From Rubripirellula reticaptiva (GTDB taxonomy: Bacteria; Planctomycetota; Planctomycetia; Pirellulales; Pirellulaceae), in NCBI RefSeq assembly GCF_007860175.1, contig NZ_SJPX01000004.1, positions 496,001-560,000 on the forward strand: a stretch of DNA of 64,000 nucleotides. Direction: 5' to 3'. The position numbers and the translations under genes are program-made. Below the pieces are notes generated by a model. The model worked only from the letters and a program-made list of their open reading frames with translations. It was not told the origin of the DNA and did no database searches. Positions 24,844 through 39,975 of the stretch are shown piece after piece (the first letter of the stretch is position 1; each line of letters begins with the position of its first letter).

Positions 24844-25863
24844 GTGTCATCAAAACGCGAAGCGAAACCATTTTTCCGCAAATCAAAAAACGCCTGGTAC
24901 CTCCAGCTTGGTAAACGCCAAGTGAGCCTTGGGCGGGAGAAAAAGCAAGCCTGGCAAAAGTACCATCAATTGATGGCAGACAGCGAACCGATTCGCGAAA
25001 CCGCCACGGTTGAAATGCTCTTTGAGCGATACCTGGATTGGGTTGAGGAGAATCGAAAGCCGGGAACGTACAGCAAGATTCGTGACAATTTGTCGTCTTT
25101 TGCAAAGTTCATCGGCAAGCAGACCAAAATTGCCACACTGAGCGGTTCGGATCTCTCCAATTGGGCTGAAGGGCAAAGCACATGGTCATCGACGACACGA
25201 AATGAAGGGATAGGCTCGGTCGTTCGATGCTTTAATTGGGCGGTAGGAAAAAAGTACCTAAAAACCAACACGGTGGCTCAGGTGCCAGACAAGCCTCGTC
25301 GGAAACGCCGCGAAACCGTGATCTCAACTGACGAGTGGACAACGCTGCTCGGTTTCGTCAAAGACCAAGCGTTTCGTGATCTGCTTTGCTTTATGTGGGA
25401 GGTAGGCTGCCGTCCCCTGGAAGCTCGTACGATGGAAGCAAAGCACGTCAACTTGGACGCAGGCATCGTCATCTTTCCGCCATCTGAGGCAAAAGGCGAA
25501 CGTCATGAGCGAGTGATTTATCTGACAGAAGCAGCAAAACAGATCTGTGCTCGCCTCGTAGCAAAATGGCCAACTGGTCCCATCATGCGAAACACTCGCA
25601 ACCGACCATGGACAAAGGACTCGATCAACTGCCGGTTCTCCAGGCTCAAAAAGAAAACCGGCAAACGCGTGTTTGCCTACGCCATTCGGCACAGCTTCGC
25701 TACTCAAGGGCTAATCGATGGTGTGGACTCGGTTACCTTGTCACAGCTCATGGGACATGCTGACGTAAGTACGTTGGCAAAGAACTACGCTCACCTTTCA
25801 AGAAACCAACGCTACTTGAAAGAACAAGCTGAATCGGTACGAAAACGCCCTGACGCAAACTAA
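24844..25863 (+). CDS. tyrosine recombinase / integrase of the element
   Basis: 339 residues from GTG 24844, with a GGAG ribosome site at 24831-24834. An N-terminal arm-binding-like region and core-binding SAM-like domain (about 50-135) precede the catalytic domain with R190 (EVGCRPLEA), K217, R282 (AIRHSF), H305 (LMGHAD) and nucleophile Y315 (NYAHL). The usual first His of HxxR is replaced by Tyr (YAIR), a tolerated change. It would cut and join the 52-bp tRNA core. It lies 130 bases inside attL and reads into the element. Confidence 0.95.
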   Translation: MSSKREAKPFFRKSKNAWYLQLGKRQVSLGREKKQAWQKYHQLMADSEPIRETATVEMLFERYLDWVEENRKPGTYSKIRDNLSSFAKFIGKQTKIATLSGSDLSNWAEGQSTWSSTTRNEGIGSVVRCFNWAVGKKYLKTNTVAQVPDKPRRKRRETVISTDEWTTLLGFVKDQAFRDLLCFMWEVGCRPLEARTMEAKHVNLDAGIVIFPPSEAKGERHERVIYLTEAAKQICARLVAKWPTGPIMRNTRNRPWTKDSINCRFSRLKKKTGKRVFAYAIRHSFATQGLIDGVDSVTLSQLMGHADVSTLAKNYAHLSRNQRYLKEQAESVRKRPDAN

Positions 25864-25921: not shown

Positions 25922-26336
25922 TGATGGATTTGTACTTTTCAAAAAGAAGCCCAAACGCTTCATCTGCTAAGTCCTGCTTTCTCCGCCCATCTCCTGCAAG
26001 CTGGAGAGTATGAAAGAGGCGGCTGAATTTTTGCTCTGTTTCGTCAAGCACTTTGAGATTGAGATTTCGGCGAACTTCTTTTTTCGTAATGCGAGGAGCT
26101 GAAGTCCCCTGCCCGCTTGCGGTCTTCTTTTTGATCGGCTTTGCTTTTATCGCAGCAACTTTTTCTGTTGGTTTTTCAACTGGCAATTTTTTTGCTGCTT
26201 CGGTTGCCGTCGTCTTTTCTGCGAGCTTGGCACGATCTTTTTCCAAGCGTCTTTGTTCGAGGCGTTTTTCAGTCTCTTCAAGTTGATCGTCGACTATCGC
26301 AAAAGTTGATGAAAAATTTGGTGCTCGACTACTCAT
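25914..26336 (-). CDS. small partner of ParA (partition-type)
   Basis: 140 residues, highly charged. N-terminal half is a Lys/Glu/Ala-rich helix or coil (about 15-85). The C-terminal half (about 90-140) reads TKKEVRRNLNLKVLDETEQKFSRLF, of a helix-rich nature close to ribbon-helix-helix or other small DNA-binding partners of ParA. Its start overlaps the parA stop by 8 bases, so translation is coupled. I infer a centromere-binding role from this pairing; no ParB motif is seen. Confidence 0.7.
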   Translation of the reverse strand: MSSRAPNFSSTFAIVDDQLEETEKRLEQRRLEKDRAKLAEKTTATEAAKKLPVEKPTEKVAAIKAKPIKKKTASGQGTSAPRITKKEVRRNLNLKVLDETEQKFSRLFHTLQLAGDGRRKQDLADEAFGLLFEKYKSITS

Positions 26337-26985
26337 TTGAAACTCTCTGTTCGTTGTTCAGTCTTGGCAGAATGATTTCAGCAACAAGCGATTGAACATC
26401 GGTTGCGGGACCATCTTTTCCACCAAAGCGTTTGTCTCTCATCACGCTAGTGTTTCGCTTGATGGCAATTCGTTCTCGTATTTCAGTGTCTGCCACTGGA
26501 ATGCCGTAGCGAAGCAAGTTTTCACGCACGCTTGGAACCGCAATGTCGTTTTTCAGTGTCCGAGTTAGAACGATACTGGCGTCTGGCTTCCCTCCCTCGC
26601 TTCGACGTTGTTGTCGTCTGACAAGATTGATGACACCAACAGTTTGAAGAAGATCTTGCTCAGAAACGCAAAGCGGAATCAGAACTAAATCCGAGAGCAA
26701 GCAAAGCGTTGAAACTTGGTCGCCTTCTTTTCCTGGTGCATCAATGATGACGTGATGCCCTGACTCAGAAAGCTCCTGCACTTCGTCATCGATTCCATCG
26801 AGTGACGTTGCTGAGCGAAGAATCAAGTTCGAATCAAAGTTCTTGAGCAGCGTTGCCGTTGGCGCGTACTCTTCCGCGTCCACAAGAGCTGTCGAAAATC
26901 CTAAGTCGTTCAAGTACACCACCAGATTTCTGGCAAGAGTGCTTTTGCCGACACCACCTTTACTGTTTGCAAGTCCAATTATCAT
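26329..26985 (-). CDS. parA: ParA-type partition ATPase
   Basis: 218 residues from ATG 26985, which follows an AAGG ribosome site; eight extra codons upstream are possible but less likely. The deviant Walker A SKGGVGKST (about 8-16), the A' motif VIIDAPG and VDAEEYAPTA are all present. ParA proteins sort low-copy plasmids and elements by ATP-driven movement on nucleoid DNA. Here with its small partner and the inverted repeats just upstream it forms a compact partition locus near the replication region of the element. Confidence 0.93.
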   Translation of the reverse strand: MIIGLANSKGGVGKSTLARNLVVYLNDLGFSTALVDAEEYAPTATLLKNFDSNLILRSATSLDGIDDEVQELSESGHHVIIDAPGKEGDQVSTLCLLSDLVLIPLCVSEQDLLQTVGVINLVRRQQRRSEGGKPDASIVLTRTLKNDIAVPSVRENLLRYGIPVADTEIRERIAIKRNTSVMRDKRFGGKDGPATDVQSLVAEIILPRLNNEQRVSNE

Positions 26986-27044
26986 TTCGCCTTGAAGGTT
27001 ACCAATCAACCAGACAATCTGACAAGATAGTAATATTGCTCACC

Positions 27045-27677: not shown

Positions 27678-28823
27678 TTGATTTTGAGTAAAAAAGAACA
27701 AAGAAAACAAGCCGAAGTCATCCAGCTATTTGGGCGGGACGAAATGAATCTAGTTGAGATTCCATTTGGTCCAATTTCAAAGACGCAAGTGAAGACGCTT
27801 GAAGTAGAACATGAAACCTACGACAAGCAGCTTAAACGCTACGTGACTCGAAAATTGTTAATGACTGGCACCGATGCCTTCGGCCTTCCTCAGCCTATTG
27901 ATGACCAGGTGATTGTTGGCCTCAAAGCACTTACCTGCAAAGCCAAATTTGAATCAAGGCGAGTTGAATTTAGCCGTTACCAGCTATGCAAAGAAATTGG
28001 CTGGCCAACAGACGGGCGTTCGTACCGGAGGCTTGAAGACTCGCTCGATCGAATTGCGAGCACGACACTGAAATTTAAAGACTACTGGTGGGACAAGGGC
28101 GACCAGGCATGGAAGTCGAAAACCTTCACCCTAATCGGAAGCGTACAGATTTGTTCACGAGATGAATTTGACAGAGCAAGAAAGAACAAAACTGGTGCTG
28201 GTTATCAGCTCTGTTCATTTGAGTGGAGCGAGGTTGTCTGGAAAAGCTTCACCGACGGTTACGTCAAGAAGGTCGACATGGAAATGTTCCGACGCGTTTC
28301 TTCGGGACGTAGCAAAGAGGTAGCAGTTCGGCTTTATCGAGTGCTCGACAAACGACTGTACAAAAAGCAGACGTGCAATTTCAAGCTAGAGCGATTGTGC
28401 AAGGGAATCATCGGACTCAGTGATTCTTACTGCCCAAGCGAGATGAAACGCATCCTTGAACGTGCAGCGAAGTGGCTCGTTACATGCGGTTGTATTTCAG
28501 GAATGGAAATCAAACCCGATCGCAAAACCGGGGAGCTAATGGCAATTTTTCGACGAGTGAGAAAACTTCCGACATTCAAGAACCTAGATGATCCAGAGAG
28601 TGGAAAACCTGCAAGCCGTCCATTGCTTCAACAATTTGATGGCATGAAAACGGCGCAACGAGAGAAGCTGCTAAAATCTGCAATTGAGTTTAGCCGGACT
28701 CATCACCCAGAACAGTACGAGGGCTTCCAACGAAGCGAGCAACGAGAAGGGGAGGCGTCTCGGGCATATCTTGAACTGATTCTGAGAACCTTCCTGGCTG
28801 CAAACAAAAAGAATGCTGCATAA
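27678..28823 (+). CDS. replication initiator protein (Rep-like)
   Basis: 381 residues if started at TTG 27678; an in-frame ATG lies at 27744. Two winged-helix-like halves are suggested: about 70-200 (SRYQLCKEIGWPTDGRSYRRLEDSLDRI, typical of plasmid Rep replication initiators) and about 215-330 (VRLYRVLDKRLYKKQTCNFKLERLCKGI). Position directly after the iterons is the strongest support. It would bind the iterons, open the origin and recruit the helicase. No ribosome site is clear for either start, so N-terminus is uncertain. Family call is by layout and motif, not by a firm named signature. Confidence 0.8.
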   Translation: MILSKKEQRKQAEVIQLFGRDEMNLVEIPFGPISKTQVKTLEVEHETYDKQLKRYVTRKLLMTGTDAFGLPQPIDDQVIVGLKALTCKAKFESRRVEFSRYQLCKEIGWPTDGRSYRRLEDSLDRIASTTLKFKDYWWDKGDQAWKSKTFTLIGSVQICSRDEFDRARKNKTGAGYQLCSFEWSEVVWKSFTDGYVKKVDMEMFRRVSSGRSKEVAVRLYRVLDKRLYKKQTCNFKLERLCKGIIGLSDSYCPSEMKRILERAAKWLVTCGCISGMEIKPDRKTGELMAIFRRVRKLPTFKNLDDPESGKPASRPLLQQFDGMKTAQREKLLKSAIEFSRTHHPEQYEGFQRSEQREGEASRAYLELILRTFLAANKKNAA

Positions 28824-29227
28824 CCTGCATTCGCGTAGATATCCTCGCAGCCATTGTCTGCGAGCGGTCAAATCAGCTATGCTGACCGACTACTTCAAAG
28901 CAAGGAATTTGGATACGCAAGACAACGTGCTCGCCAGAGCATTGCATCGCGTACTTTCCGATGAAACTACAAAGATTGATCAAAAAGACGAGTCTGGAAA
29001 AGCCGGGGGAAGTCTGTATCTGTTCGAACCTAAAACGCTGTTTGCTTTGCGTTTCAATACCCTGCAAAATCAGCCCGTGGAACGATTCCACACGTGTCAG
29101 TGTTCAACAAACGTTAAAGCACTTTCTTTCGATGTAAGAACCGTTGCGAGTTTGGCTACCAACCAAACAAGCTGTGCTTGCCTAACCAGCGAGAGAGTCG
29201 GCGAAAGCCAACTCTGTTCTTAGTCAG
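28824..29227. other. gene-free lead-in to the large RNA
   Basis: About 400 bases after the Rep gene. A 136-codon open frame (28813-29223) runs through it with no ribosome site, no known motif and odd composition; I do not support it as a gene. The stretch could hold the promoter of the large structured RNA that starts near 29228. Confidence 0.5.
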
Positions 29228-30195
29228 TAGAGCTGGATGCCATGAGAGTGGCTCGTCCAGTTCGACGGGGGCTGCTAAGCCTAATCCCGTCTCACTTAGT
29301 TTGTGAGCGGTCTAATTCTTAGCTTCTACCCGATAGCAACAGAAAGTCTGAATTGGAATTTCGGGCGACACTGAAAAACCTCCCGTCGGTTTTTGATTGG
29401 AGGCCGTTGTTTTGGAAGTGGTGAAGCAGCTAAAGGGCTGCGTAATCCACCGAAGGGGATTGTAGGTCTCTGACCTGCTTTAACCTTCGCCGCCGCGTGG
29501 AGCCTGGTTGCGGTAACGTAACCAGCCGGGAGGCCGACACCTCTCGGGTACCTGGAGAAACACCAGGACGTGAAAAGCTCAAGCGTGAAAGGGGAGCAAT
29601 CCCTTGGCGGTAAGTATCTCTGAAGTGGTTGCCGAAAAGGTGCTGGGCTTGCAATAGCGTACCCAGCACGACGAACGGCCCAACGTGAAACGGTAAGGGG
29701 AAGCTTCTGTTTTCTGTCCCCTGAAACCTGGCGTCAAGCCAGTGGAGTAGGAAAGCCTGACGGCTTCACCTATCGCGTTGAACAGCTTGCGAGCTGTTAC
29801 AGGTCATGTGGGGTCACGCCCACTAGTCACCAGAGCAGAGACGCATCTCGATGCAACTAAAGTGGGAAGCAGTCATGTTGCCGCCGTTTGGTTATGGCGG
29901 GGCCTTGGAATGTCACCAAGGAGCAAGCGTGAGTGTGGGAGTGAGTAGCAAGTAGAAGCAGGTCAAGGGAAGGTCTCGGAAGAGGTCTTCACTACCCGGC
30001 GGGAGCTTTGCCGTGCTAGCGGCAAGCGAGATGAGGCAAGGCAGTTTCAAACCGTTCTGGACCTAAGGTGGTACTTGGGTTTTGACAGACGACGAAAGCT
30101 ACGACTGACCAGTGGGAGCATGCGTTCCCGAGGTCGAAAGAAAGTTGATGCGAGTTGGTGCTTACTTTTTGAGTGGCACCGACTCGCTTTCTTGA
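29228..30195 (+). ncRNA. large structured non-coding RNA, about 0.97 kb, unknown class
   Basis: No long open frame, but a very dense series of hairpins. Examples with positions: CTGGA/TCCAG enclosing GCCA/TGGC (29233-29260); GACGGG/CCCGTC enclosing GGCT/AGCC (29264-29291); CCTGG/CCAGG (29551-29567); GCTGGG/CCCAGC (29642-29667); AACAGCT/AGCTGTT with a TGCG loop (29781-29798); CCGCC/GGCGG (29881-29900); CCTTGG/CCAAGG (29903-29921); and a final 12-bp stem GCGAGTTGGTGC / GCACCGACTCGC (30150-30187). A protein gene follows after a structured leader. I do not see a group I or II intron core, a reverse transcriptase or an IscB. Size and texture recall GOLLD, ROOL or HEARO-type giant RNAs. Strand is inferred from the downstream gene. 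Confidence 0.72.
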
Positions 30196-30454
30196 TTGAA
30201 TGCAGTGCGGTTAGACGCGAGTTTCCCTGACGGGCAATTGGCCTCTAGCAGTGAGCTGACGCAGTACAGGCGACGTTCGCTTTGCGTACGAAGCTTAGGT
30301 TTTAGAAAGGAAAGAAATCGAAGGCCAATGGAATTGGCCGCAGGCATTTTGGAAAACAGATGTACTCGCGAGTTTGGCTTTGCAAACTCCCTGAGTACGA
30401 TGTTTTCAGCACCGTAGGTTCCTTCACACGAGTGAAACGAAGGTTCTGGCTTTC

Positions 30455-30512
30455 GCGATTGTGCCCTAACAATCGCCTCACCTGAGACGCCTACGGGCGT
30501 TTGAGGTGGAGG
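30455..30512 (+). promoter_or_regulatory. alternative hairpins that bury the ribosome site of the 30519 gene
   Basis: Hairpin 1: GCGATTGT/ACAATCGC (30455-30476). Hairpin 2: 30476-30512, with ACGCC-TACG-GGCGT at the tip and a lower stem in which CCTCACCT pairs with AGGTGGAGG, covering the whole Shine-Dalgarno GGAGG (30508-30512). The two share base 30476, so they stand side by side and may compete at the base. An RNA or protein that opens hairpin 2 would release translation. Confidence 0.66.
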
Positions 30513-30518
30513 CAAAAA

Positions 30519-31238
30519 ATGGCAAGAAAAGAGTACCGATACGTTGCAACGTCAAAGGCCGGGTTTATCCGGCAGTTGGTCAATTACGCCCGTCACGGCT
30601 ACGTGTTCTACGTAAAGGGGCATGTACGAAAGGGGTTAGATCCTGAGCGAGTTGATGACAAGCTGCTAGGCCTTTACGACGTGCGTAAGACTGACGCGCA
30701 GCGTCACTGGCGCAAAAAGAACGGAAACTGCAACTTTCAATACCTCCGGTTTGAACGCACCTGGGTGCTGCTCTTAACGCCTGGTGAGCAACCAGCGGAG
30801 TTCATGAAGCGAGAAAGAAACAACATCAGAAACCTTGAGCGAGGAGAGCCGCTTGCCGTTTGCGGCTATTCGATTTGCCGCGTGATGGGCGATTTCATCA
30901 GAAACCGAGACAAGCCAGAAGACACAACGGGTGCTGTCCGAGACACCAAGCGACGAGTTCGGGTGCAAATTTCAAAATCTGAATTCAAGGAACTAAAGGG
31001 CGAGTTCCTGCGACATGCCAGGACTCGCTCTGAGGATTGGTATCGGCTAAAGTTCTATCATTCGGGCTTTGAGCCATACGCTCCTATTCGTAAACAGCTG
31101 CTCGACTTGCTTCGAATGGTGAACGCGGCTCGGGCACCGCACGGGTTGCCGAAGATTAAACCCGACTGCATTCGCTACCGAATTGAACCAGTGAAGGTGT
31201 TTGAAGCTGTGAGCGAGGCCGGAAAACAAGCTGCATAG
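30519..31238 (+). CDS. basic protein of unknown family, partner of the large RNA
   Basis: 239 residues from ATG 30519, set by the GGAGG at 30508-30512 (an earlier TTG start at 30501 lies inside the hairpin stem and is unlikely). Rich in Arg and Lys throughout, e.g. RHWRKKNGNCNFQ and MKRERNNIRNLERGEP. There is no transmembrane segment or signal peptide. No recognised nuclease, transposase or polymerase motif: no HNH, RuvC, HUH or RT signature. The basic surface suits RNA or DNA binding. It sits alone downstream of the structured RNA on the same strand, followed by a hairpin-rich gap. Function is unknown; pairing with the RNA is inference from order, spacing and leader structure. Confidence 0.72.
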   Translation: MARKEYRYVATSKAGFIRQLVNYARHGYVFYVKGHVRKGLDPERVDDKLLGLYDVRKTDAQRHWRKKNGNCNFQYLRFERTWVLLLTPGEQPAEFMKRERNNIRNLERGEPLAVCGYSICRVMGDFIRNRDKPEDTTGAVRDTKRRVRVQISKSEFKELKGEFLRHARTRSEDWYRLKFYHSGFEPYAPIRKQLLDLLRMVNAARAPHGLPKIKPDCIRYRIEPVKVFEAVSEAGKQAA

Positions 31239-31401: not shown

Positions 31402-32241
31402 ATGCGTTCGATTGCAATTCTCGTGCTGTCCCTGGCACTCGTGTCATCCGCTCATGCCGCAACCATCACCGTCATCGGAGGTGATAACATCGGCTCTGAT
31501 AATTCGACCGTAAATGGTAACGGAGTTGTAGGTGCTCATGGGAGTGCAAGCTACTCTCCACTGACTAATCTAGGGATGCCAGCAATTCCGTTTTCAGCGG
31601 ACGGTTCGACTCGTCTTTATGACTTTCGGATTATTGCCGGTGTTCTTCCAAACTCAAATGCCGGTTTGACTAACGTTGATTGGTCGAATCAGAACTGGAC
31701 GCTCTCCGTTTTTAGCGATACAGCCTACAAAAACGAGCAAATGCCATTTATCTCTCATGCCTTTGGGGCTGAACCTGATAACTGGTCTGGATTTAATCGT
31801 GTGAGCTCTACTTTAAACGTGCCTGATACGGCTTCCTTTGGAGACTTTGGAACATCGGGGAATATCGACCAAGGTCTCTACGACTTACAGTTCTCATTAG
31901 CTGGTATTGAAGACTTTGAAGCACCTCTAGCTGCTGGCGACTACTTTATTGCTATTCAATCCCATGCTAATCAATCTGCCTTTGGCGAGGGCGTACTTGC
32001 TATTACTAGGAGTGCTGTTCATCCTGACTATTGGTATGACAGCAACCAAATCTTACCCCAAGCCGTGGTGCCAAATTTGACACCATTCACTGACGTCGGT
32101 GTTGCATTCTCGGTAAGAGCAATCGCAGTACCGGAACCAAGTTCTCTGATGCTTCTGGGGTTTGGGTCTTGCTGGGCAGTGTGCAAACGTCGGAAGCGAG
32201 CTGCTAGCTACGAGACCAACGAAGGCAGCAGCAATGTCTAG
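31402..32241 (+). CDS. PEP-CTERM secreted protein, copy 1
   Basis: 279 residues. Signal peptide 1-20 ending in SAHA, a beta-rich passenger domain, and a C-terminal sorting tail VPEPSSLMLLGFGSCWAVC followed by KRRKR: this is the PEP-CTERM pattern (VPEP, hydrophobic segment, basic end), processed by exosortase at the cell envelope. The function of the passenger is unknown. The second copy follows about 100 bases later and the two share long exact DNA blocks at both ends. A secreted envelope protein on a mobile element is unusual cargo. Confidence 0.9.
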   Translation: MRSIAILVLSLALVSSAHAATITVIGGDNIGSDNSTVNGNGVVGAHGSASYSPLTNLGMPAIPFSADGSTRLYDFRIIAGVLPNSNAGLTNVDWSNQNWTLSVFSDTAYKNEQMPFISHAFGAEPDNWSGFNRVSSTLNVPDTASFGDFGTSGNIDQGLYDLQFSLAGIEDFEAPLAAGDYFIAIQSHANQSAFGEGVLAITRSAVHPDYWYDSNQILPQAVVPNLTPFTDVGVAFSVRAIAVPEPSSLMLLGFGSCWAVCKRRKRAASYETNEGSSNV

Positions 32242-33102
32242 AAAGCTTGACCAGTGCGGCTCTCGCCTCCTTCAAGTTGCCCGACCAAGCTGGGGGCCTT
32301 GTCGGCTCCGTTCTCGCTCGACTCCAAGTCTGAAATATTTAGAAATGCGTGCGATTCCAATTCTCGTGCTGTCCCTGGCACTCGTGTCATCCGCTCATGC
32401 CGCAACCATCACCGTCATCGGAGGTGATAACATCGGCTCTGATAATTCGACAGCCAACGGCAATGGAGCTATAACAGCTCATGGGAATTCAAACTATTCT
32501 CCAACTGCTAATCTAGGCATGCCTGCAATGCAATTTTCAACGGACGGTACCTCCCGTCTGTATGATTTTAGAATCATTGCAGCCGTTGTTCCTGACTCAA
32601 ACAGCAACTTGACGAACGTTGACTGGTCACAACATAACTGGACACTCTCGGTGTTTAGTGATGCCGCGTTTAAAAACGAGCAAATGCCATTTATCTCGCA
32701 TGCATTTGGGGCTGAACCTGATAACTGGTCTGGCTTCAATCGTGTAAGTTCTACCTTAAACGTTCCCGATATAGCTGCGTTTGGAAACTTCGGAACATCG
32801 GGTGATGCAAGCCAAAATCTCTACAATCTGCAGTTCTCATTACTTGGAATTCAAGACTTTGAAGCACCGCTCGCTGCTGGCGACTACTTTATTGCTCTTC
32901 AATCCCATACCAGCCAGACTGCTTTTGGAGAAGCTGGCCTTGCTATTACTAGAAGTCCTGTTCATCCCGACTACTGGTACGACACCAATCAAATCTTACC
33001 CCAAGCCGTGGTGCCAAATTTGACACCATTCACTGACGTCGGTGTTGCATTCTCGGTAAGAGCAATCGCAGTACCGGAACCAAGTTCTCTGATGCTTCTG
33101 GG
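31415..33102 (+). repeat. 943-bp tandem duplication with identical ends and diverged middle
   Basis: The 94-bp block 31415-31508 equals 32358-32451, and the 113-bp block 32047-32159 equals 32990-33102, both at the same 943-bp offset. Between them the copies differ at many positions although no net length change has occurred. Pattern of gene conversion at ends or selection for change in the middle. Confidence 0.9.
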
Positions 33103-33151
33103 ATTGGGGTCTTGCTGGGCAGTGTGTAAACGTCGAAAAAGGAAAGCCTGA
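32345..33151 (+). CDS. PEP-CTERM secreted protein, copy 2
   Basis: 268 residues from ATG 32345, which aligns with the start of copy 1; a longer in-frame reading from 32162 overlaps copy 1 and is not supported. Same signal peptide and VPEPSSLMLLGLGSCWAVC sorting tail. The passenger is clearly homologous to copy 1 (for example the shared SHAFGAEPDNWSGFNRVSS) but differs at many positions in the middle. An exosortase gene is not in the window, so sorting must use the host machinery. Confidence 0.9.
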   Translation: MRAIPILVLSLALVSSAHAATITVIGGDNIGSDNSTANGNGAITAHGNSNYSPTANLGMPAMQFSTDGTSRLYDFRIIAAVVPDSNSNLTNVDWSQHNWTLSVFSDAAFKNEQMPFISHAFGAEPDNWSGFNRVSSTLNVPDIAAFGNFGTSGDASQNLYNLQFSLLGIQDFEAPLAAGDYFIALQSHTSQTAFGEAGLAITRSPVHPDYWYDTNQILPQAVVPNLTPFTDVGVAFSVRAIAVPEPSSLMLLGLGSCWAVCKRRKRKA

Positions 33152-38088: not shown

Positions 38089-38367
38089 GATGTCTCCTTG
38101 GGGTGATTCACTCCAAGGATGTTGGCAGAACTGCTCACGCTACTCAAAAATCTCGCAGTGGTTTACTGAGATGGCGACTGATTCGGGTAGATCGAGACTG
38201 CGGGGAGCAAAAAACGTCGAGGAGCAAAGACTTGCACCGGTGGCGGAATGGCTTGATGCCTCATTCGTCGCTGCCCACGCTGCCCAATAGTTTGGTATTG
38301 CTTCTACGAGTAAACTGTTGCACGATCTTCGACTGAAACCCGAGTCCACTAGTTGAATTTGCATTGC

Positions 38368-39975
38368 ATGGCCAAGAAAAAAGCGGCTTCCGAAAAGGCA
38401 GCGGCGAAGAAAAAGTCGACCACTCAAAAAAAAGCTCCCAAAGACGACAAGGGCTTTGAAGTATCCCTGTGGGATTCTGCCAACCGGCTTCGCGGCAGCG
38501 TGGAATCTTCCGAGTACAAGCACGTCGTCCTGAGCCTGATCTTCCTGAAATTCGTCTCGGACAAATTCGAAGAACGCAAAGCAGCGTTGATCGCTGAAGG
38601 CAAGCAGGACTACACCGACATGGTGGAGTTCTACACGATGCAGAATGTGTTCTATCTGCCCGAAACATCTCGGTGGAGCCACATTCAGCAGCACGCCAAA
38701 CAGGACGACATCGCCATCAAAATCGACTCGGCGTTGGCTCAAGTCGAAAAGAGCAACGCGTCGCTCAAGGGAGCCTTGCCAGATAACTACTTCTCTAGGC
38801 TTGGTCTGGATGGCAGCAAGCTGTCGGCCTTGATTGACGCCATCAACAACATTGACACCGTTGCCGACAAAGAAGAAGACGTCGTTGGCCGCGTCTACGA
38901 ATACTTTCTGGGCAAGTTCGCAGCATCCGAAGGGAAGCTTGGAGGCGAATTCTATACGCCCAAGTGCGTGGTGAATTTGATTGCTGAAATGATCGAGCCC
39001 TACAAAGGCAAAATTTACGACCCCTGCTGTGGTTCAGGCGGGATGTTTGTGCAGTCGCTTAAGTTTGTAAAATCGCATCACGGTAACACCAAGGACATCT
39101 CGGTGTACGGTCAGGAGTTTACGGCGACCACCTACAAGCTGGCCAAAATGAATCTTGCGGTGCGAGGACTGTCGGCCAATCTGGGTGACGTTCCGGCCGA
39201 TTCGTTCTTTAAGGATCAGCATCCTGACTTAAAGGCCGACTACATCATGGCCAATCCGCCGTTTAACATGAAAGATTGGCGAGCGGCTGATGAGCTGACC
39301 AAAGACTCGCGTTGGGACGGCTACGAAACACCTCCGACGGGCAACGCCAACTATGCGTGGATTCTGCACATGGTGTCGAAGCTCTCGACCAATGGTGTGG
39401 CTGGTTTTGTGTTGGCCAACGGTTCGATGAGCACCAACACCACCGGAGAAGGTGCGATTCGTCAGAAGCTGGTCGAGAACGACATGGTCGATTGCATGAT
39501 AGCGTTACCGGGTCAATTGTTTTACACGACTCAAATTCCCGTTTGCCTTTGGTTCCTGACCAAGTCTAAAAAAGTAGACAAGCAACGGGGCTACCGTAAT
39601 CGTGAAGGCGAGACGTTGTTCATTGACGCACGCCAAATCGGTTCGATGATCAGCCGCACGCAAAAGGAACTGACCGACACCGACATCGCAGCCGTCGCCA
39701 AAACCTACCACGCTTGGCGCGGCGAGAAAAAAGATGGTGTGTATGAAGATCAGGCAGGTTACTGCAAATCGGCGACATTGGAGGACATCCGCAAACACGA
39801 CTTCATGCTGACGCCCGGTCGTTACGTCGGCGCTGCAGCGTTGGAAGACGACGGTATCCCTTTTGAAACCAAGATGACGGAGATGAGCCAGACGCTTTAC
39901 CAGCAGATGGACGAGTCGGCGAAGTTGGACAAAGTGATTCGCAAGAATCTGGAGGTCTTGGGTTATGGAAAGTGA
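38368..39975 (+). CDS. hsdM: type I restriction-modification methylase subunit HsdM
   Basis: 535 residues from ATG 38368; a TTG five codons earlier is an alternative. N-terminal Lys/Ala-rich tail, then the HsdM helical domain (SANRLRGSVESSEYKHVVL pattern) and the methylase domain with DPCCGSGGMF for SAM binding and ANPPFNM as catalytic motif. It joins one HsdS and two HsdM to methylate adenine in a bipartite target. hsdS overlaps its end by 11 bases. The gene starts a three-gene operon in the usual M-S-R order. Confidence 0.96.
   Translation: MAKKKAASEKAAAKKKSTTQKKAPKDDKGFEVSLWDSANRLRGSVESSEYKHVVLSLIFLKFVSDKFEERKAALIAEGKQDYTDMVEFYTMQNVFYLPETSRWSHIQQHAKQDDIAIKIDSALAQVEKSNASLKGALPDNYFSRLGLDGSKLSALIDAINNIDTVADKEEDVVGRVYEYFLGKFAASEGKLGGEFYTPKCVVNLIAEMIEPYKGKIYDPCCGSGGMFVQSLKFVKSHHGNTKDISVYGQEFTATTYKLAKMNLAVRGLSANLGDVPADSFFKDQHPDLKADYIMANPPFNMKDWRAADELTKDSRWDGYETPPTGNANYAWILHMVSKLSTNGVAGFVLANGSMSTNTTGEGAIRQKLVENDMVDCMIALPGQLFYTTQIPVCLWFLTKSKKVDKQRGYRNREGETLFIDARQIGSMISRTQKELTDTDIAAVAKTYHAWRGEKKDGVYEDQAGYCKSATLEDIRKHDFMLTPGRYVGAAALEDDGIPFETKMTEMSQTLYQQMDESAKLDKVIRKNLEVLGYGK

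Follow-up and report, generated by a model that had tools for sequence, protein, structure and literature searches.

A circularly permuted group II RNA in Rubripirellula reticaptiva and its linked protein AcpG, by predicted fold most likely a fingerless, polymerase-dead maturase

What is the large hairpin-rich RNA that precedes a small basic protein gene in a 64-kb stretch of the Rubripirellula reticaptiva genome (the stretch is called the window, the genome G000), and what could the protein (P0001; 239 residues, 51 Lys plus Arg, 29 Asp plus Glu) do for it? An earlier note on this DNA had seen in the pair a giant ornate RNA with a protein partner on a mobile element, and not a visible group I or group II intron. 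We find that the RNA is a circularly permuted (CP) group II RNA, a catalytic RNA of a class that is known but little understood and was described in 2021 as CP group II ribozymes or ‘T-large’ RNA (Roth et al. 2021, PMC8637638), and that P0001 belongs, as judged by profile comparison, to the AcpG family, which the same paper presents as a frequent neighbour of CP group II RNAs for which no homology to other protein classes was found. An already described RNA class therefore spans the region.

The assignment begins at the 5’ end of the RNA, where 29228-29334 on the + strand matches Rfam family RF00029, comprising group II domains 5 and 6 (D5 and D6), with 50.1 bits at a cut-off of 40 bits, so that the exclusion of a group II intron was mistaken. 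No other Rfam family reached its cut-off across the window, and OLE, GOLLD, ROOL and HEARO were absent among the four Rfam matches up to E 10 in 28800-30560. D5 and D6 form the 3’ end of an ordinary group II intron; here, about 850 nt of further structured RNA lie 3’ of them, giving a whole RNA of about 0.95 kb. No open reading frame (ORF) of at least 90 aa overlaps 29228-30160, and while the minus strand of 29228-30190 has stop-free stretches of up to 135 codons, relatives conserve the RNA instead.

The comparison drew on the best 80 of 121 P0001 relatives in a species genome collection, the loci thus being picked by protein, and two covariance models, R1 for D5-D6 and R2 for the D1 core, each trained on the window plus six relatives (n = 7). 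The elements of the module are the following, with their basis in brackets.

29160-29226, + strand: 5’ extension with putative P1/P2 stem-loops of the CP group II RNA (low confidence)
29230-29263, + strand: domain 5, catalytic, with AGC triad, UC bulge and GAGA tetraloop (RF00029, R1)
29266-29334, + strand: domain 6, with bulged branch-site A29328 and predicted 3’ splice site after 29334 (alignment, pairs)
29335-29362, + strand: 28-nt intervening sequence, predicted circle (splice-site rule)
29363-29865, + strand: domain 1, opening with GGGCGAC at the 5’ splice site; its conserved core, 29443-29613, is matched by R2 (alignment, R2, covariation)
29866-30109, + strand: domains 2 and 3, with conserved end ACGACGAAAGC..GAC (alignment A4, 29691-30109; border with D1 approximate)
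30150-30187, + strand: domain 4 stem-loop of 12 bp including one G-U, 30150-30161 with 30176-30187 (position only)
30455-30476, + strand: conserved hairpin GCGATTGTGCCCTAACAATCGC, candidate protein-binding or translation-control site (loop motif, paired stem)
30519-31238, + strand: acpG homologue, 239 aa (profile comparison; predicted palm and thumb of a reverse transcriptase (RT) fold)

The RNA and acpG are genetically coupled, as R1 matched 62 and R2 67 of the 80 loci, in every case upstream of acpG and on the same strand (L075, one of the scored matches, is a training sequence, G216, and R2’s match to the D1 core of the window is likewise to one of its own seven training sequences). Relatives that had not been used for training, L021, L022, L023 and the Planococcus plasmid L006, were also recovered by R1 and R2. 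Where 1.9 kb or more precedes acpG (66 loci, termed testable), the RNA was present in 63 (60 by both models, 3 by R2 alone), and in the 14 loci with less room it was seen in 4; the same-strand basic protein to which the earlier note had drawn attention is thus linked to the RNA. Choosing by RNA rather than by protein, R2 matched at 10 places, spread over 9 of 392 genomes from the phylum, and 8 of these places have AcpG just downstream; in G278 a contig edge lies just past the D1 match, and in G125 an isolated, partial D1 match is accompanied by neither a detectable D5 nor AcpG. The RNA of G266 was missed under the stricter filters of this survey and is found by R1 and R2 searches.

Compensatory changes show that it is the RNA structure that is kept. 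Among the seven sequences including the window, double changes occur in 15/29 pairs of D5-D6 and 32/51 pairs of the D1 core. Over 62 distinct relatives, 97.8% of 1758 D5-D6 cells are paired and 23/29 pairs carry double changes, and over 67 distinct relatives 96.3% of 3313 D1-core cells are paired and 35/51 pairs do so, counts that come from matches aligned to the model and are biased towards it. None of 500 shuffles scored as high on any covariation measure, and sliding the partners by 1-3 columns lowered pairing to 27-45%; together with the RF00029 score, this confirms the large structured RNA that the earlier note had proposed. Alignment A4 has double changes in 40/63 pairs. D5 helix 1 is paired in 98.4% of cells (62 distinct relatives), D5 of the window reads GAGC...UC...GUUC, with the bulge UU or UC in 7/7 aligned sequences, and the A of the triad is paired, this position being A-U in 54/61 relatives and C-G in 6/61. 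The D6 terminus is TTC[TG]A[TC]CC[GAC]AT in most relatives. The 12-bp stem that the earlier note placed at the end of the RNA is present, and a stem of different sequence was seen by eye at about this D4 site in some relatives. In the 130 nt before D5, GGTAAAC-like and TAAGGG-like motifs occur in 38/63 and 47/63 sequences, respectively, as counted with no control, the window version being divergent.

The order in the window is D5-D6-D1-D2-D3-D4, and the splice sites are reversed around the linker, the 3’ site, of the AY type, following ..GAU (29334) and the 5’ site, of the GUGYG type, preceding GGGCG (29363), with a predicted circle of 28 nt. As a positive control, the splice-site rule applied to P. 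naphthalenivorans plasmid pPNAP05, whose RNA is found by R1 with E 1.1e-6, returned 213-244, 32 nt, in agreement with the 32-nt circle that PMC8637638 predicts. The CP group II RNAs of that paper share with the window the domain order, the UN bulge of D5, the bulged A of D6, the reversed splice sites, the short linker, the size, the plasmid association and AcpG nearby. They differ in that the triad A of D5 is apparently unpaired there, whereas it is paired in the window branch, and in that acpG is reported in either orientation with many loci lacking it, whereas here it is always downstream and on the same strand where the RNA was found (67/80 loci). Moreover, the hosts here are mostly labelled planctomycetes, a phylum not named in the accessible text of the paper. 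Among the matches listed for the open-licence PMC literature, PMC8637638 is the only one that details AcpG or the RNA class; later closed work may exist.

Membership of P0001 in the AcpG family emerged at the level of profiles. Using hhalign, a nine-sequence profile (P0001 plus eight) aligned collinearly with six Thermus proteins (93.3%, E 2.7e-7, 169 columns), and a 77-sequence profile aligned with Thermus AcpG at 77.1%, E 2e-5 (164-169 columns over both comparisons). The AcpG of Thermus plasmid pTT8 (L004:6164-6943, which size and position suggest to be TTHC007) thus shares with P0001 a collinear profile, a similar size and the same RNA partner; according to PMC8637638 the Thermus gene and its RNA diverge, whereas acpG of the window lies on the strand of its RNA. 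Alignment A10 excludes L084 and L114 (in-frame stop near the range end) and L071 and L072 (partial), and alignment A14 is a 60-sequence subset. P0001 matched nothing in Pfam or NCBIfam. We rejected membership of AcpG in a Pfam family, as the five families matching at E up to 0.1 each hit 1-2 of 77 members (best E 0.0085), and also kinship by sequence to a PDB chain, for which a single weak match was obtained (molecule S2_1.2, E 0.043). P0001 relatives occur in 8/392 genomes of the phylum, that of R. reticaptiva counted, as well as on the planctomycete plasmid pK2D_1 (48%) and a 5.5-kb Planococcus plasmid (28%). The 80 kept relatives are mostly labelled planctomycetes, with other labels for Acidobacteria (L103, L104), Calditrichota (L099), Hydrogenedentota/Hydrogenedentes (L109, L110) and Thiocystis (L119), and a few labelled only ‘bacterium’. 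No relative was found in 39 candidate stretches of viral contigs, nor in 17 stretches from a genome-contig scan using P0001 alone. The R. reticaptiva genome also holds a second CP group II RNA and acpG in the same RNA-to-protein arrangement (contig C2, 1202826-1204769; L024, 9327-11270), its AcpG being 37-38% identical to P0001.

Predicted structures suggest what AcpG may be. Two models were built, for AcpG of the window and of Thiocystis (pLDDT, the predicted local distance difference test score, 94.2 and 96.5; their alignments overlap), and a Foldseek search with each returned a group II RT as the sole match at E 1e-3 or better. By VIA-align, group II-type RTs occupied ranks 1-10 with one model and 1-11 with the other, and lower ranks held spliceosome chains with Prp8, DRT9 and mostly other RT and RNA-dependent RNA polymerase folds. 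The alignment to RTs starts at about residue 100, beyond what we take to be the limits of the fingers, and the order of helices and strands matches what we take to be that of palm plus thumb. In the predicted models we found no fingers bearing RT motifs and no catalytic YADD, and the Asp pair at the motif-C turn is present in 0/77 AcpG members. AcpG thus resembles group II RT/maturases of the GsI-IIC and LtrA type in its predicted palm and thumb and in its place just 3’ of D4, and differs from them in size (about 240 aa versus about 420 aa or more), in having neither fingers nor the catalytic Asp pair, and in giving no detectable profile match to them. On these models the most likely identity of AcpG is a group II maturase that consists of palm plus thumb, has no fingers and is dead as a polymerase, and we are fairly confident of the combined reading, in which 29,227-30,190 is a CP group II ribozyme (D5-D6, then the splice-site linker, then D1 to D4) and AcpG at 30,519-31,238 is its partner, a maturase of this kind.

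Several results weigh against this reading. For the protein, BLASTP detected no similarity between P0001 and the Thermus pTT8 protein, Foldseek aligns AcpG only loosely with group II RTs, with a query TM no higher than 0.41 and a root mean square deviation of 7.8-18.8 Å, and hhalign gave AcpG against 11 maturases a probability of 0.3%, whereas an unrelated Rep control reached 2.0%, and gave Thermus AcpG against maturases 0.1%; as there is no profile match to maturases, it is fold, topology and gene position that carry the maturase reading. For the RNA, the D5 triad A is replaced by C in 6/61 relatives, R1 found the pTT8 RNA of Thermus weakly (14.5 bits, filters off) and in the records of Thermus and of P. 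naphthalenivorans pPNAP05 R2 gave no convincing match, so that, by model scores, the RNAs of planctomycetes seem to form a branch of their own within the CP group II class. Pairing of intron-binding and exon-binding sequences 1 (IBS1/EBS1), sought by eye and by a scan of registers, was only partly supported over 26 loci: with five-base pairings, the top register out of 48 gave 3.65/5 pairs versus 2.99 when shuffled, and the window itself does not fit. For coupling and expression, three AcpG loci (L103, L112, L117) had no RNA in 4 kb upstream with filters off, a scan of the region found no sigma-70-like promoter, and a terminator-like site lies between the RNA and acpG (30279-30294, + strand; 6 such sites versus 3.3 expected in the region).

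The most serious alternative accepts the CP group II RNA and a functional AcpG and denies the descent from a maturase, the likeness to RTs being convergence or an over-read model. The failed profile comparisons and loose superpositions leave it some room; it is nevertheless unlikely, given that two models, from the window and from Thiocystis, both place group II-type RTs in all of the top 10 and 11 positions, that the order of secondary structure elements follows what we take to be palm and thumb, and that acpG is located where a maturase ORF would be. Far less probable is a canonical group II intron that is decaying, has its parts out of order and serves no function today, with an unrelated gene adjoining it: the same genome does carry other D5-like matches and, on contig C3, the domain of a canonical maturase, but order, splice sites and base pairs persist across some 60 relatives, in several phyla by label, and show compensatory changes, and the same protein follows in 63/66 testable loci. 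Finally, the ornate RNA of the earlier note, although it fits the size, the many stems, the basic protein downstream and the mobile element, is sustained as a large RNA with a linked protein and refuted, to a negligible residual probability, as a new class akin to OLE, GOLLD or ROOL, since the group II intron is the only Rfam family at gathering score, D5-D6 and the splice-site anatomy are those of a group II RNA, and the 2021 class agrees with it in domain order, splice sites and AcpG.

Under the favoured reading, the module could act as follows. The RNA would fold as a group II intron, A29328 would attack the 5’ splice site before G29363, and the freed 3’ end at 29362 would attack the 3’ splice site after 29334, releasing a 28-nt circle and a T-shaped branched RNA in which D1-D4, plus acpG if it is co-transcribed, would be attached to D6 through a 2’-5’ bond. 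AcpG would assist the folding of the RNA, comparable to the dead RT domain of Prp8, a protein that is eukaryotic and far larger than AcpG.

The hairpin at 30455-30476 offers a candidate contact. Its loop, UGUGCC..AACA, is constant, and its stem varies and stays paired; it lies within 200 nt upstream of acpG in 40/63 sequences versus 2/4415 control windows of the same loci, the pattern having been derived from the loci on which it was scored, and in 33/63 by a stricter search within 160 nt. By analogy with Domain IVa of ordinary introns, this hairpin may be an AcpG-binding site.

The gene order also bears on origin. An ordinary ORF-bearing intron reads D1-D2-D3-D4[maturase ORF]-D5-D6, and if an exon-joined intron circle were opened in D4 just after the ORF, D5-D6-linker-D1-D2-D3-D4-ORF would result, which is the rotated order seen in 63/66 loci. 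Since such an opening gives the observed order, AcpG is probably a vestigial intron-encoded protein in its old place, and the D4 opening is probably the most economical origin of the CP group II-acpG arrangement. On balance, we favour the view that CP group II modules arose from intron ribonucleoproteins by rotation at D4. AcpG, the old intron-encoded protein, would have kept palm and thumb and lost polymerase activity; it would be a bacterial counterpart of Prp8 serving an RNA catalyst that has ceased to be mobile, and may regulate its own production through the hairpin ahead of its start codon. More tentatively, the module might serve upkeep or regulation of the host replicon and not the RNA’s own mobility. 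CP group II ribozymes have been active molecules lacking a known role, and AcpG a partner without known relatives; if AcpG is a reduced dead maturase, three questions become testable: the origin of the class, its need for a protein in the cell, and whether AcpG joins Prp8 as another RT that was domesticated to a pure RNA-splicing cofactor. The large planctomycete set, with its fixed order of RNA then acpG, provides clean material for genetics and structure work.

The mobile-element setting noted earlier is borne out by three neighbours in the window.

24844-25863, + strand: tyrosine integrase (family match)
26329-27009, - strand: ParA-type partition ATPase (family match)
27678-28823, + strand: plasmid-type replication initiator (RPA, PF10134), recurrent upstream neighbour (family match)

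An RPA-family Rep lies upstream on the same strand in 27 of the 51 RNA loci whose flank before D5 spans 1.5 kb or more, and pK2D_1 (L005) likewise begins with RPA, which indicates that the CP group II-acpG module is at least in large part borne by plasmids or integrated plasmids, in agreement with PMC8637638. A ParA gene also lies upstream in L103 and L112.

Ordinary group II introns may lie in the vicinity of some loci and probably occur elsewhere in the R. reticaptiva genome. In L053 and L076 the R1 match is closely preceded by a second, canonical-looking D5, and R1 matches L052 twice, so that in these three loci an ordinary group II intron may be inserted in or beside the CP RNA; among the pooled upstream ORFs there was one member each of RVT_1, Intron_maturas2 and an AI2M-like HNH. 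The D5-like matches on contig C3 of R. reticaptiva (~491888 and ~498800) are weaker and accompanied by a GIIM maturase domain, and this locus is probably an ordinary group II intron. Scans of the flanks further revealed recurrent RNase T-like 3’-5’ exonuclease genes among the upstream neighbours of 58 RNA loci (10/103 ORFs), and recurrent Class-V aminotransferases (6/102) and ArdC anti-restriction domains (3/102) among the downstream neighbours of 55 loci. In the window, tandem PEP-CTERM proteins just past acpG (31402-32241 and 32162-33151) share a near-identical stretch in their 5’ coding parts, and an HsdM-type DNA methyltransferase is encoded at 38353-39975.
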